This document shows positions 8,557 to 14,792 of a stretch of 64,000 nt of DNA, piece by piece. Position 1 is the stretch's first letter; every line of letters begins with the position of its first letter. The notes beneath the pieces were generated by a model. It searched no databases. It had not been told where the DNA came from and saw only the letters and a program-made list of their open reading frames with translations. This DNA is from Ramlibacter pinisoli (GTDB lineage: Bacteria; Pseudomonadota; Gammaproteobacteria; Burkholderiales; Burkholderiaceae_C). The stretch covers positions 1,178,001 to 1,242,000 of the forward strand of contig NZ_WSEL01000003.1 in assembly GCF_009758015.1 (NCBI RefSeq), given 5' to 3'. Position numbers and translations under genes: made by a program.

Positions 8557-9057
8557 TTAGTCAACCGGAATCAGATGACCCTGCTTTGCCGCCAATGCGA
8601 TCCTCTTCTTCGCCTCCGCGTCCGTCGAATTGATTTCGCAAGCAAAGCCCGGTTTGGCTGTCTCCAAAGACCCCAGCTTACTTACGAGCGAACGCAGGTC
8701 GGAACTTCGTTCGGTAGGGAAATCAAGCCCGACCGTCAGTTCTGAGCACGGTTCAATCATTGCAGGTGCCTTGACACACACGATCCAGGGGACCGTTGTG
8801 ATTTTGGCCTCGGCGGTTTGACTAAAGCTGACCAGCTCTCGGTACTGAGCCCGGCACTCAAACCCTTCGCGCTTCAAACCTTGGATGAAGGTTAGCGCTT
8901 TGACGCCTTCGTACGGGTGGCCCTCATTCAGCTTAGCTTCAACAGCCAGCACAGTTCTTACTTTTGAATCCAACGATTCGATCGCCAACGGATCGTATTT
9001 GCCGCCTCGCTCACAGGCAGAAAGCACCAGACAGAACGCAATAGTCGACAAGCGCAT
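8557..9057 (-). CDS. Small lipoprotein, candidate immunity protein for the upstream RHS protein
   Basis: A 166-residue predicted lipoprotein with an unrecognised mature domain. It starts MRLSTIAFCLVLSAC: a short basic n-region, hydrophobic core and a lipobox LSAC with Cys14. Serine at +2 after the cysteine (the next residue is Glu) is absent and there is no Asp at +2, so outer-membrane sorting is plausible. Mature part has four further cysteines (FECRAQ, IVCVKA, EPCSEL, GFACEI), allowing two disulphides in the periplasm. The ATG lies 2 bp after the RHS stop codon, with GAGGAA inside the end of the RHS gene, so translation is coupled. Base composition is clearly lower in GC than the surrounding genes. 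Position and secretion signal fit an immunity protein; function is inference. Confidence 0.75.
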   Translation of the reverse strand: MRLSTIAFCLVLSACERGGKYDPLAIESLDSKVRTVLAVEAKLNEGHPYEGVKALTFIQGLKREGFECRAQYRELVSFSQTAEAKITTVPWIVCVKAPAMIEPCSELTVGLDFPTERSSDLRSLVSKLGSLETAKPGFACEINSTDAEAKKRIALAAKQGHLIPVD

Positions 9058-9059
9058 GG

Positions 9060-12000
9060 TCAGTTCCTCAAAGACGGTCCAACTTGAAGCTGAACTGCGG
9101 TCCCCCAGCGCATCAGAGACGATGACCATTTCCTTCCCAGATTACTGACCTCTCGCACGATCAGATTCGCAGCATGCCAACTCTGTGTGTCGAACAACTC
9201 CTGCGATCTGAATGGCGACATTGGCAGTTGACGATTGGCGTAGTAGCCATATCGTTCGATAAATCTGTCAATTCCGGCAAGACTTGCCTGCAGAAATTTT
9301 TCTCCTGCAGTCATGGATGCCGTCACCCCACCACTGCTCAAGAATTCGATCGCTTGATTGACCGTAAATTCGTAAGTGAATCGGTTACGCCCCCCGGGCC
9401 CTTCGATTTCGTTCGGTCTCAACAATCCCTCCCGCAACGCGCCTGCGCCACCCAGAAACCGCTCGGTGATCAGCCGGTAGTTGATGTCGCGTGTTTCAGG
9501 GCTCCGTAAGAAGGCGAACATGCCAGCCGACTCGAGCTGCTCCGCTGTTAATGCCCGCGCCTCCTGAACGGTGGATTGCACGCCGTTGAGTGTTGCGACC
9601 TTCTGGGAGGTCGTCAATCTTGTTCCGCTCACATTCTCCAGTGCCACCATGACCTGCCTGGTGGCGTCGAGTGCCTGGTCTTCGGAAATGTAGTCCTGGT
9701 AACTCAATTGCCTGATGTGCCCTCCAGGACTCGTGTACGAGATGAACTTTCCTTTCTCCTCGTGCCAGTACGAATGGAAGATGGAATCGACCAAGGCGTG
9801 CAGGGCAATGCCGACGACGATGTCGTCGTCCTTGTAGTCACTGATGATCCGCTGGAAGGTCAGGACGTTCTCTTCGGTCGGACGGCCGTTCAGGGCGTGC
9901 ACGGCCTCCATGACCTTGAATCCAGCTTCGCGCGGCGCATACCCGGGCTCGGTCGCCATGTACCTGACACCGTTTCGGTAGGCGTCCACGATCGACAATT
10001 GGTCGGGCATCTGGGAATACCTCATGATCCGGTACAAGCGGTCCCGGTCCATGCCGACTGCTGCTCCGACTTGGCCGATCAAGTAGTAGTGTCCCGAGGC
10101 CGTTCCAGTCCCATACATCGTCGGTCCCGGCTGGATGCTCGCGAATTCGACGGACCGGTTTGCGATGTCCCTGTCGAAGTCGTCGGGGACCCGTGGCAGT
10201 GCCTGGCCAGAGAACATGGGGAGATCGGCACTCCCGGCCGGACTCATGAGGCTGCTGAACTGCGGGGCAGGCGTGATCTGGCAGTCCCGGTCGATGAGCA
10301 TGTTCAGCGCGGCCATCCTGGATTCTTCGTTCTGCCTCCTGAGCTCGATGGACCGGAATGCCTCCTGAGGCGTGGATCTGGACGTTGGAACCAGGTCCTC
10401 GACGAGGGCATTGCCGAACGCGTCGATGGCAACCTGCTGCGTGGTGATGCGTCCACCCTTGGCTATCGCGGTCGCCACTCCTGCGGCAAAGCTGGTCAAC
10501 GTGCGCGCTGCGAGCGCGCCCGAGCCGCTGTCGACATCCAGCGTCATTGGCTTGGCGATCTGACCGACGAAACTCCCCACGCCCGCCGCAGCGACATTGC
10601 GCCAGTCGAACCGTTGCTGAAGTCCGACGATCACGCCGATACCTTGCGTGAGCCCATTCGCCACCATGGCCCTCGCCACCGTGCCGGGAGGTCCGGCGAG
10701 CCCCGCCATGCCGAGCGGGACCGAATGCGTGACACCGGCACTGACGGCCGACAGGGCGACGGACCGCCAATCGAAGCTCTGGATGGTGCCGGTCGCCAGG
10801 CCGACGAACTGGCTCGCCAGGCCTCCCGCCGCCGCCCCGACCATCGCGGCTCCGAGACCACCAGCCCCGCCCGCACCAGCCAGGATGGCACTGCCCGCTG
10901 CCATGTTGCCCGCGACCGTTCCGGTGCTGGCTCCGACTGCGGTAGCGGCGCTGCTCGCAGCCGCCTGCACACCGCCACCGAACAGCCCTGAACCGGCCGC
11001 CGCTCCGCTGGTATAGATCGTCACCGCCACCGCCACCACCACCATCAACAGCTGCCCCGCCGATCCGCAACCGTCGGTGCCGGACGGCATGGCCATGACG
11101 GGCGTCATGTCGCCCGCCATCCGGGCCGGGTCGTAAGGGCGGAAGGTGGTGCCGTCGTTGCGCGCGGTGCCAACCGTGCTCGGGATGTTCAGCGACTGAC
11201 CGACTTTCAGGCCGGTGCTCGAAGCGAGGCCATTGGCCTCGGCGATGCGGAACCACAGCCGGCCGTCGCCGTAGGCTGACTGGGCGATGCTCTGCAGCGT
11301 GTCGCCCGGGCGCACCTGGTACGCACCGGGGCTGGCGTTCGGGTAGCTGGCGCTGATGCGCGCATAGCCGAAGTCGAAATCCGCCAGGTTGGCGAAGTTC
11401 GGATTGCTGGCGGCTCCCGAAGCGGGGTTGGCGGGGTTGACGCCGACGCCGTAGACCCCCAGCACCTCGCCGTTGACGACCAGCTGGCGCTGCACGTTGC
11501 CGGCCTGGTTGACCCACAGGGCGCGGCCGGCGCCGTCATTGACGAAGCTGCGGTTGTTGCCGGGCTGGGACGAGTCGACGTAGCCGACCAGGAAACCATT
11601 GGCGTCGTACTGCTGGGTGCTGGCGCCGGGTTGCACCAGCTGGGTCGACCAGCCGGTGGTGGCCTGGGCGAAGTAGCCTTCCTGGCGACCGAGCGTGGTG
11701 GTGTAGCGCTTCGTGCCGCCGTCGCCTTCCCAGTTCGCCACCGCGTAGCCGCGCGCATTGCCGGCGGCGTCGTAGCCTTCCGCGCGCTGGACGGAGAAGG
11801 CTGGCCCGACGGTTTCCGCCGTGTCCCAGCTCGTGTCGGACCGGGCCGCGCCCTGGGCAGTGAGCAGCTTCTGGTGCAGCATCCGGCCGTTGGCGTCGTA
11901 GCGGTTGATGCGGATGTCGCGGCTGCTCGCCGGCGACGCCGCCAGTGCGTCGGCGACCAGTGACGCCAGCGCGGGAGGCACGGTCGCCGTGGGGCCCGAC

Positions 12001-13637
12001 TGCACGACCCGGCTGGCGCCGTCGAACAGGCGCAGGTCGACCTGGATACCGTCGCGCTGCACCGACTGCAGGCGGTCGAGGGCGTCATAGCGGTACTGTT
12101 CCGTGCTCAGGCCCTCGCCGCGCGTGGATGCCACCGCCGTGGACGCATAGAGCGCCGCCCCGTCGGCCGCATAGCCGGTGATGGCCTGCTGGCCGGGGGC
12201 GATCGCGACCCGGTCGGCGCTCCAGGAGGTGTCGCTGGTCCGGTTGCCATTGCGGTCGAAGGTGATCAGGTGCCCTTGCCGACCAATGTTCCCGGCCGCG
12301 TCGACGGCGTCGACGACGACCTGGCGGTTCATGGCGTCGAAGCGGAAGAAGCGCTGCACCGTCTCGGTGGTCTCGCCCGCCACGCCCTGGTAATTGACGG
12401 ATGTCGCGACCCGGGTGCGATTGCCCACCGCGTCGTAGTCCATGGAGACATGCACCCGTGCGTCGGCCACGTCCCGCAGGTTGCCCTGGGCGTCGAACGA
12501 GAGGTGGTTGTCCTGGTAGGTCGCCCCGCCCTGCACCACCCGTTCGCGGATGCGGCGTCCGCCCAGGTCGTAGGCGAAGGTGCTCACCTTGCCCAGGGCG
12601 GCGTCGGTGATGGAGACCTGCTGTCCGGCGGCGTCGTAGCCGAACGCGAGATTCTGCCCACGCGTGCTGGTTTGCCGGATGAGCTGGCGCGCGATGTCGT
12701 AGCCGTACGAATAACGCGCGCCGCCCAGGTCGGTGTGGCCGGTCAGCAGGCCGAAATAGTCGTAGCTCCAGGTGGCCGCGTAGCCATTGGCATCGGAGTC
12801 CGCGATCTTGCGGCCCTGGGCGTCGAAGGCGGCGCGCACCGGCTGGCCCAGCGGCTGGCGAGTCTCGATGACGTTGCCGCGCAGGTCGTAGGCGTAGCGG
12901 ATCGTCTCGCCGTTGCCGTTGGTCTGGCTGAGCTTGCGACCGAGCTGGTCGTAGGCGTAGCGCACCCGCGTGGTGGTGGCCCCGCCTGCGGTGACGGAGC
13001 GCACCTGCGTGAGGTTGTTGCCCGCGTAGTCGTACCAGGTGGCCTCGCCGCTGGCGGTGGTGGCGCTCGCCAGGCGGCCGGCGGCGTTGTACCCGTACAC
13101 CAGCGCGTTACCCGCCGTGTCGCGGCTGGACAGCAGGCGCATCGCTCCCGTGGACTGGTACCGCTGGGTGGCGCCGGTGCTGCCGTCGCGCCATTCGAGC
13201 TGGCCCTGGGAGGTGATCAGCGTGATGGTGTCGTGGGCACCACCGCCTTCGCGCGTGAGGTAGGCGCCGAGGGCGGCGTCCCAGGCGTATGCGGCGACCG
13301 AACCGTCGCGGTCGGTGCGTGTGAGGGTGCTGCCCACCGCGCCGAGGGTGCCGGCGAGCACCAGCGGCTGCGGGGCGGTGCCGTTGGTCCAGTTGTCGCC
13401 GTTGTCGTCGTTGAAGCTGCCCTGGCTGTTGTACGTCCTGAGCGCAAGCGCCTCGGGCCCGCGCGCCATGAGCCGGTCGTCGCGGGACTGCAGGACCAGG
13501 TTGCCGGTGGCGACGTTGACCAGCGCCTGTTCGCCGTTGCGGCCGGTGTTTGCAGAGCCGAGCACGCCCTGCTGCCCGAGCGTTCGCATCGAGCCGAGGT
13601 CCAGTCCCAGGCTGCTTCCGCTGACGATAGCCACCAT
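9060..13637 (-). CDS. RHS/YD-repeat protein with LysM and a zinc-phospholipase-like C-terminal domain
   Basis: A 1525-residue giant. Residues ~1-720 carry degenerate YD/RHS repeats (YGYDIARQLIRQ, YDAAGQQVS, YDAVGNRTRV). Residues ~770-820 are a LysM domain (YQVRPGDTLQSIAQSAYGD). Residues ~850-1090 are a Gly/Ala-rich hydrophobic region ending DAFGNALVED. The last ~375 residues form a separate domain with HYYLIGQVGAAVG (His1183), Asp1212 in RYSQMPD and H1280-ALV-D1284-SIF-H1288-SYW-H1292, resembling metal ligands of DUF6765/zinc phospholipase C-like folds. No PAAR domain, no signal peptide and no canonical DPxGL pre-toxin motif were seen. GC falls sharply in the C-terminal coding third (40% over 9241-9300). 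A secreted or surface antibacterial toxin is the working inference; domain calls are by eye. Confidence 0.85.
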   Translation of the reverse strand: MVAIVSGSSLGLDLGSMRTLGQQGVLGSANTGRNGEQALVNVATGNLVLQSRDDRLMARGPEALALRTYNSQGSFNDDNGDNWTNGTAPQPLVLAGTLGAVGSTLTRTDRDGSVAAYAWDAALGAYLTREGGGAHDTITLITSQGQLEWRDGSTGATQRYQSTGAMRLLSSRDTAGNALVYGYNAAGRLASATTASGEATWYDYAGNNLTQVRSVTAGGATTTRVRYAYDQLGRKLSQTNGNGETIRYAYDLRGNVIETRQPLGQPVRAAFDAQGRKIADSDANGYAATWSYDYFGLLTGHTDLGGARYSYGYDIARQLIRQTSTRGQNLAFGYDAAGQQVSITDAALGKVSTFAYDLGGRRIRERVVQGGATYQDNHLSFDAQGNLRDVADARVHVSMDYDAVGNRTRVATSVNYQGVAGETTETVQRFFRFDAMNRQVVVDAVDAAGNIGRQGHLITFDRNGNRTSDTSWSADRVAIAPGQQAITGYAADGAALYASTAVASTRGEGLSTEQYRYDALDRLQSVQRDGIQVDLRLFDGASRVVQSGPTATVPPALASLVADALAASPASSRDIRINRYDANGRMLHQKLLTAQGAARSDTSWDTAETVGPAFSVQRAEGYDAAGNARGYAVANWEGDGGTKRYTTTLGRQEGYFAQATTGWSTQLVQPGASTQQYDANGFLVGYVDSSQPGNNRSFVNDGAGRALWVNQAGNVQRQLVVNGEVLGVYGVGVNPANPASGAASNPNFANLADFDFGYARISASYPNASPGAYQVRPGDTLQSIAQSAYGDGRLWFRIAEANGLASSTGLKVGQSLNIPSTVGTARNDGTTFRPYDPARMAGDMTPVMAMPSGTDGCGSAGQLLMVVVAVAVTIYTSGAAAGSGLFGGGVQAAASSAATAVGASTGTVAGNMAAGSAILAGAGGAGGLGAAMVGAAAGGLASQFVGLATGTIQSFDWRSVALSAVSAGVTHSVPLGMAGLAGPPGTVARAMVANGLTQGIGVIVGLQQRFDWRNVAAAGVGSFVGQIAKPMTLDVDSGSGALAARTLTSFAAGVATAIAKGGRITTQQVAIDAFGNALVEDLVPTSRSTPQEAFRSIELRRQNEESRMAALNMLIDRDCQITPAPQFSSLMSPAGSADLPMFSGQALPRVPDDFDRDIANRSVEFASIQPGPTMYGTGTASGHYYLIGQVGAAVGMDRDRLYRIMRYSQMPDQLSIVDAYRNGVRYMATEPGYAPREAGFKVMEAVHALNGRPTEENVLTFQRIISDYKDDDIVVGIALHALVDSIFHSYWHEEKGKFISYTSPGGHIRQLSYQDYISEDQALDATRQVMVALENVSGTRLTTSQKVATLNGVQSTVQEARALTAEQLESAGMFAFLRSPETRDINYRLITERFLGGAGALREGLLRPNEIEGPGGRNRFTYEFTVNQAIEFLSSGGVTASMTAGEKFLQASLAGIDRFIERYGYYANRQLPMSPFRSQELFDTQSWHAANLIVREVSNLGRKWSSSLMRWGTAVQLQVGPSLRN

Positions 13638-13856: not shown

Positions 13857-14420
13857 ATGGACCATGAGACCCGCTACCGCGACCTGCTGGAGCAGGGCCT
13901 GCAAGCCAGCCGGGACCAGAGGGGAGCGGCCGCCATCGAGTTGTTCGCCCTCGCCAGCGACGTCGCACCGGCCGAGGGCATGCCCCATTTCCTCATGGCG
14001 TCCGAGCACGCGGCCGAGGGGCGCACTGAAGCCGCGGAGCGCGCCTTCGCCAACGCAGTCCTGCTGGCGCCCGGCTTCCACCTGGCCCGCTACCAGCTCG
14101 GGCTGCTGCAGTTCAGCTCCGAGCGGGCGGGCGCGGCACTGGTCACCTGGCAGCCGCTGCTGGACCTGCCGGCGGGGCAGCCGCTCGGCCACTTCGTGCG
14201 CGGCTTCGCCGCCCTGGCACGCGACGGCTTCGGCGCCGCGCTCGACGAGTTCCGGCTGGGCCTGGCGTGCAGCGAAGGCCAGCCGGCCCTGGCGGCCGAC
14301 ATTGAGCGGGTCGTGGCGGCCGTCCAGAAGCTGGCGCCGCCGGCGGACGGCTCTCCACCTCCTGCCGACGCGGCCGCCGGCCATGTGCTGTTGTCTGCCT
14401 ACGCCCGCGGCCTGCACTGA
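13857..14420 (+). CDS. Tetratricopeptide-repeat protein
   Basis: A 187-residue cytoplasmic protein with no signal peptide or membrane segment. Two to three TPR-like helical pairs are visible (residues ~15-50, ~52-85 with FHLARYQLGLLQF, ~95-135), with typical small/aromatic spacing. TPR proteins act as adaptors or chaperones. It opens a plus-strand trio divergent from the RHS gene, and the next start is 9 bp after its stop, so they are probably cotranslated. A chaperone or export-adaptor role for the RHS protein is a guess from position only. Confidence 0.75.
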   Translation: MDHETRYRDLLEQGLQASRDQRGAAAIELFALASDVAPAEGMPHFLMASEHAAEGRTEAAERAFANAVLLAPGFHLARYQLGLLQFSSERAGAALVTWQPLLDLPAGQPLGHFVRGFAALARDGFGAALDEFRLGLACSEGQPALAADIERVVAAVQKLAPPADGSPPPADAAAGHVLLSAYARGLH

Positions 14421-14429
14421 GGCCCCGCC

Positions 14430-14792
14430 ATGACCCGCATCGACTCAGGCCCTGCCCTCTCCACCTGGCTGCCCGCCGAAGCCAGCACGCCGGGCGTGCA
14501 CGCCAAGCCCGCCTCGACGGCCCAGGCCCGCCCTGCGGCCCAGAGCCTGGCGGCCACCGCTCTGCAACGCATCCGCGCTGTCCCGCCGGACGACCCCGAC
14601 CGCCGGCGCAAGGCCCTGCGCATCTACCTCGAGACCACACTGCTGCAGGCCTTCGGCACGCAACTGGCCCTCGATGGCGGGTTCACCCAGCTGCTCGATG
14701 CGGTGCAGGAGCGCATGGCCGCCGATCCGCAGATCGCGGCCGTGGCCGACCGGGCGGCGGCGATGTTGTGCGAGCAGGCGCCGGCGGGCTGA
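14430..14792 (+). CDS. Conserved-looking small protein of unknown function
   Basis: 120 residues, not recognised. The N-terminal ~45 residues are Ala/Pro-rich and probably disordered. Residues ~50-115 are predicted helical (RRKALRIYLETTLLQAFG, FTQLLDAVQERM). No signal peptide or transmembrane segment. It starts 9 bp after the TPR gene stop and has no coding rival on either strand of comparable quality. Third-position GC is high, typical of real genes here. Function unknown; the tight spacing suggests it works with the TPR protein. Confidence 0.65.
   Translation: MTRIDSGPALSTWLPAEASTPGVHAKPASTAQARPAAQSLAATALQRIRAVPPDDPDRRRKALRIYLETTLLQAFGTQLALDGGFTQLLDAVQERMAADPQIAAVADRAAAMLCEQAPAG

Follow-up and report, generated by a model that had tools for sequence, protein, structure and literature searches.

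What is the function of the C-terminal domain of a large RHS protein when a lipoprotein gene begins just beyond its stop codon? The question arises in a 64,000-nucleotide stretch of the Ramlibacter pinisoli genome (contig NZ_WSEL01000003.1, positions 1,178,001 to 1,242,000; the whole stretch is called the window here), in which an initial annotation, made from the sequence alone, had proposed that the domain is a lipid-attacking toxin and the lipoprotein its antidote. Comparison across genomes identifies the RHS-LysM protein as a carrier whose tip is swapped among related genomes, with an exported four-cysteine partner of its own encoded after the tip. On these comparisons, tip and lipoprotein very probably constitute a toxin-immunity pairing, and the locus as a whole likely belongs to a polymorphic (modular) system of antibacterial toxins as one of its toxin-immunity cassettes, in which the substrate is the putative step. 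The relevant features are as follows.

8557..9057, minus strand: lipoprotein of 166 amino acids (aa) with four cysteines in the mature part, the probable immunity protein
9013..9057, minus strand: signal peptide (residues 1-15) of the lipoprotein, its lipobox LSAC with C15 recognized by pattern
9060..10151, minus strand: candidate C-terminal toxin tip, residues ~1163-1525 plus stop
9060..13637, minus strand: RHS-LysM carrier protein of 1525 aa, from sequence and Pfam
9064..9069, minus strand: GAGGAA, a ribosome-binding-like stretch that precedes the lipoprotein gene and lies within the final codons of the RHS gene
10386..11180, minus strand: pre-toxin region (residues 820-1084), Gly/Ala-rich and hydrophobic, common to congeners up to the tip junction
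11181..11321, minus strand: LysM domain (residues 773-819; Pfam PF01476, E 2.7e-9)

Pfam recognizes RHS repeats (E 1.8e-27) and the single LysM domain in the carrier but nothing in its last 375 residues, which have no match at E ≤ 10. NCBIfam has no match for the RHS protein or the lipoprotein, and the Pfam search of the lipoprotein returned merely a chance-level line (E 0.2). The physical details reported by the initial annotation are all present: the 2-bp gap between the RHS stop and the lipoprotein start, a ribosome-binding-like stretch (GAGGAA) within the RHS coding end, and four mature-part cysteines (C68, C94, C104, and C140).

The carrier core (residues 680-1130) occurs in 19 of 59 genomes of the window's genus, the window's own included. 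Twenty core regions were fetched, three of which have no readable tip (a contig end in G025 and G022, a broken frame in G059), leaving 17 tips, each of which is followed by its own small open reading frame. Similarity along the core ends at residues 1078 to 1111 in 16 of these 17 cases; in the other (G016), the best BLAST segment already ends at residue 881. Over the last 120 residues, no pair among the 17 tips and that of the window is similar at E 1e-3, and six tip pairs share parts before those 120 residues, up to 342 residues. Four of the tips exceed Pfam cut-offs, all as nuclease toxins (GH-E, AHH, Tox-HNH-HHH, and Tox-REase-7), one narrowly misses (Tox-URI2), and the remaining 12 are without a match at E 0.01. 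The exchange of tips on a shared core indicates that the RHS-LysM protein is a polymorphic-toxin carrier, and the features of such systems found here are unrelated tips on one core, occurrence of the tip on RHS-LysM, PAAR_motif, and TraG_N carriers, and an adjacent partner. The G011 genome has 10 core matches (contigs C4, C23, C25, and C37; loci L009, L072, L074, L075, and L079), several of them close together on C23 and C37 in short frames, as if they were tandem spare tip cassettes.

The tip itself is found on carriers of three kinds. Residues 1120-1525 were searched against 5.8 billion proteins (candidates limited by length); besides the protein itself, this returned two TraG_N proteins, identical at 35% (E 4e-40) and 34% (E 2e-38) of positions, one of them named Massilia sp. 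CT11-137. BLAST of the 375-aa tip against one TraG_N relative gives E 5e-51, and the TraG_N domain on the tip carrier has E 9.4e-20. Genome scanning added 478-aa proteins in Massilia sp. BJB1822 and Pseudoduganella violacea, in which a PAAR motif (E 3.7e-17 and 4.6e-17) precedes the tip, and a 304-aa fragment from a JGI source (P0004) is 54% identical to the tip. Of 60 genomes in the window's genus, three have the tip, always on RHS proteins: G037, G011, and the genome of the window itself. Within the genus of the Massilia locus it occurs in 4 of 74, G1247 among them.

Wider scans, in which at most 5 candidates were scored per genome, gave matches in 2 of 399 genomes at family level, 2 of 399 at order level, and 2 of 398 at phylum level, the window's own genome being one of the two each time. 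The phylum-level match (G1092, E 1.1e-4) was treated as chance, since the motif is absent in all six frames of the stretch read. The order-level match (G666, E 2.9e-4) is a real remote relative, the tip of an RHS protein (L092, 4444-7058), which passes the DUF6765 cut-off with 56.2 bits and is bridged to the window-type tip by profile comparison (E 1.8e-7). The next gene in G666, 2 bp downstream, starts with a twin-arginine and lipobox-like signal; this is a second, different pair of like logic. The family-level match (G071; L011, 1318-2247) is a distant stand-alone protein rather than a tip, with a tip-like His/Asp pattern, a hydrophobic N terminus by eye, and a DUF6765 match just below the cut-off; it is possibly a non-toxin relative. 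The tip family is thus rare and patchy.

Base composition sets the tip and lipoprotein apart from the rest of the locus. Guanine-plus-cytosine (GC) content is 57.8% in the tip and 53.9% in the lipoprotein gene versus 70.1% in the core, and the 11 of 635 sliding 500-bp segments below 58% GC all lie within tip and lipoprotein, the only low-GC stretch of the window. GC content drops alike in G037 (from 73.3 to 58.4% in the tip and 57.9% in the partner) and by a smaller amount in G011 (from 63.0 to 57.5 and 55.9%). At the three PAAR loci for which it was measured, GC is low across the whole gene pair. This pattern fits import of tip and lipoprotein as a cassette. The same observations bear on a different explanation, in which the RHS protein has an ordinary surface or housekeeping role and its C-terminal domain serves the lipid or envelope metabolism of its producer. 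The stand-alone relative with the same His/Asp pattern favors that explanation, as does the position of the locus beside the same gene in the window and in G037 (87.5% identity), which we take to be argH-like. However, the restriction to 3 of 60 genomes, the replacement of tips by nucleases, the sharp drop in GC, and the unrelatedness of the carriers all speak against a domestic role, which we consider very improbable.

One homologous partner family supplies the next gene at all seven tip loci for which DNA was available (the window, L003, L004, L032, L033, G037, and G011), in three genomic settings, although these loci are not all independent, as four occupy one Massilia-type site and the window and G037 have the argH-like gene as a common neighbor; the protein records P0002, P0003, and P0004 come without DNA and lie outside this count. 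Across the seven loci, the gaps between tip and partner are 2, 26, 34, -1, 26, 41, and -4 bp. Equivalents of C68, C94, C104, and C140 are invariant in the five aligned partner rows, and the G011 partner consists of two tandem copies of the cysteine domain.

A partner profile made from the window and two PAAR loci, the G037 gene being left out, was searched against 59 genomes of the genus and recovered the window's gene (E 2.2e-67) and the gene beside the G037 tip (E 1.4e-13); the next matches had E values of at least 0.2, and the G011 partner was not reached. With a five-sequence profile, matches occur in 3 of the 59 genomes, exactly the tip carriers, whose three genes are themselves among the profile rows. 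Profile-profile comparison joins the six PAAR-type or unplaced partners to those of the window and G037 (E 7.3e-12) and gives E 5e-5 and 2.5e-6 for the two halves of the G011 partner. Profile search and profile-profile comparison thus support partner homology beyond shared position. In the protein collection, the partner family forms 7 clusters, four of which correspond to loci described here and three of which (P0006, P0008, and P0011) are without a place.

Instead of an antidote, could the lipoprotein be a co-toxin, or help to export the carrier or display it on the surface? Its putative role is read from position and signal. In G1247 (L033, 4945-6380), the PAAR-tip gene is broken into overlapping frames of 363 and 117 aa and the downstream lipoprotein gene is intact, a retention compatible with either an antidote or a helper. 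But it is the tip that the partner tracks, and not the carrier: the partner comes after the tip on both RHS and PAAR proteins, whereas RHS carriers with other tips have other partners. A helper or co-toxin function appears quite unlikely.

Export signals point to where the tip acts. By a simple script for lipoboxes and hydrophobicity, all nine family partners (the seven with context plus P0008 and P0011) carry an export signal, which in seven of the nine includes a lipobox; the G037 and G011 partners have only a hydrophobic N terminus. By contrast, a lipobox occurs in 0 of the 17 partners of other tips on the carrier. Partners were chosen mechanically as the first start within 60 bp that gives at least 70 aa, so that some starts are possibly wrong. 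In N-terminal hydrophobicity the margin is narrow, with a maximum of 2.19 for other-tip partners and a minimum of 2.32 for the family. Judged by these predicted signals, the most likely site of action of this tip is outside the cytoplasm, which sets it apart from the carrier's nuclease tips.

The chemistry of the tip is suggested by its conserved residues. As first described, HYYLIGQ starts at His1183, Asp1212 is present, and HALVDSIFHSYWH starts at His1280 and supplies D1284, H1288, and H1292. The conserved residues of the tip are H1183, D1212, H1247, H1280, D1284, H1288, H1307, and D1315, of which H1247, H1307, and D1315 were missing from the original ligand list. In an alignment of six tips, invariant columns make up 30 of the 269 without gaps, and they include every one of the 5 histidines that lie in ungapped columns (hypergeometric p 1.3e-5, uncorrected and from related sequences). 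Position 1292 is a gap in the other five of the six rows, and H1292 was rejected as a metal ligand for this lack of conservation. The order H-D-H-H-D-H-H-D/E is kept in all six tips; we take it, as an order only, to be that of the ligands of zinc phospholipase C and S1 nuclease.

Assignment to a known enzyme family is less clear. Fold comparison of the tip with zinc-dependent phospholipase C and S1-P1 nuclease gave a weak match, and a PDB sequence search found no similarity. In the zinc phospholipase C/S1-P1 fold, an N-terminal Trp serves as a metal ligand, but the tip has no Trp just before H1183 and is an internal domain; in this it differs from the Bacillus cereus and Listeria zinc phospholipases C and the S1/P1 nucleases. 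With DUF6765 (PF20551), the tip shares HYY, SQ..D, HxxxDxxxH, and GH..xxDPDY-like motifs along with the bridge to G666, but the window protein has no match at E 10, and members of the present tip family reach at most 21.8 bits against a gathering cut-off of 26.6 or do not score at all. Het-C (PF07217) was not among the matches of the window protein at E 10 or of its relatives at E 1. Filing the tip under DUF6765, Het-C, or the phospholipase C/S1 enzymes was rejected, as the tip lacks a defining feature of each. The interpretation first proposed is thus supported in part. The tip is predicted to be a mostly helical hydrolase with a multi-metal site at the eight conserved His/Asp residues; given the toxin-immunity pairing, phospholipase C-like metal chemistry is moderately favored.

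The same toxin-immunity logic and periplasmic action would also accommodate a tip that shares the fold but works as a nuclease or a different phosphoesterase, such as one that cuts lipid-linked peptidoglycan precursors, rather than as a phospholipase C. The exported partners count against a cytoplasmic nucleic-acid target, and where this carrier has nuclease tips, their partners lack a lipobox; we regard this alternative as unlikely. For the lipid-attacking toxin and antidote originally proposed, comparative support for the pairing is strong, and a lipid remains the putative substrate.

The general principle has precedents. RHS polymorphic toxins (PMC3482391) likewise combine a conserved carrier, an exchangeable C-terminal tip, and a small adjacent partner gene; the present tip and four-cysteine partner differ in having no Pfam match of their own at cut-offs, and the carrier in its LysM domain and pre-toxin segment. 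Het-C tips of toxin systems were proposed to share the zinc phospholipase C/S1-P1 fold (Zhang et al. 2012, PMC3482391), and VgrG proteins with Het-C are described with LysM in Acinetobacter (PMC6838775) and in Stenotrophomonas (PMC13055248). These resemble the present case in proposed fold and in uniting LysM and tip on one carrier, but here there is no Het-C Pfam match and the carriers are RHS, PAAR, and TraG-like proteins. It is established that periplasmic toxins can have exported or lipoprotein antidotes (PMC6899460, PMC9860674): the Tle3/Tli3 (PMC9860674) and VgrG2b/PA0261-type (PMC6899460) pairs of the type VI secretion system (T6SS) match a non-cytoplasmic toxin with a periplasmic or lipoprotein antidote, and one antidote family may come as a lipoprotein and in other exported forms, as here. 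Enzymes and antidotes differ from those pairs, however, and the window's genome yielded no T6SS sheath gene. The lipocone superfamily is another class of lipid-targeting toxin tips (PMC12419801). In the open-licence PMC literature, we found no description of the present tip, the pair, or its three-carrier spread, and no occurrence of the term "DUF6765." The principle is already known; the pair is a probable new toxin/antidote family inside polymorphic toxin systems.

In the mechanism we propose, the carrier would present the tip to neighboring cells, with LysM and the hydrophobic pre-toxin segment perhaps helping it reach the periplasm. There, the putative multi-metal site would cut a phosphodiester in the envelope, most likely at a phospholipid head group in the manner of phospholipase C. 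The start of the lipoprotein gene so close to the toxin stop suggests probable translational coupling, and the lipoprotein, anchored in the producer's own envelope, would block the tip, such that kin survive. Substrate and delivery route are the least certain steps of this proposal.

With regard to delivery, the T6SS sheath marker TssC/VipB (PF05943, the one marker family searched) is missing from G037, G011, G1205, G1206, and the genome of the window, whose completeness the tool puts at 99.98%. It is present in two of the seven genomes, G1247 and G1265, both carriers of the PAAR version, which plausibly uses a T6SS at least in these two. A broader scenario is tentative and, in our judgment, rather doubtful: one envelope-lipid-cutting toxin with its exported four-cysteine antidote may move as a cassette among delivery vehicles of three unrelated kinds, namely an RHS-LysM protein that works with no canonical T6SS, the PAAR tip of a T6SS, and a TraG-like protein of a conjugation channel.

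The surroundings of the RHS gene include one further feature.

13857..14420, plus strand: divergent neighbor of the RHS gene, a possible accessory, TPR-like by eye

Of the 8 congeners examined, 5 retain this gene next to the RHS start, and it may encode an accessory of the RHS system. It is the first of two genes divergent from the RHS gene (13857-14792), the second of which lies near the RHS start in 3 of the 8; at E 0.01, Pfam recognizes neither of the two. The RHS-LysM protein of the window, at 1525 aa, is short relative to the open frames of ~4100-5500 aa in many congeners, and both its ends align with the longer proteins, so that most of the repeat region is seemingly missing.

If the pairing holds, it would add families of toxin tip and antidote that pass no Pfam cut-off, and it predicts that toxicity would arise in the periplasm and be relieved by a single small lipoprotein. 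As a natural control set, related genomes offer this carrier with nuclease tips and with partners that lack a lipobox. Delivery of RHS-LysM toxins becomes a testable question, as the sheath marker is absent in all three tip-bearing genomes of the genus. Should the broader scenario be true, the RHS-LysM vehicle would suggest an undescribed route of contact delivery, and the TraG-like carrier would make a mating-pair protein a carrier of toxins.
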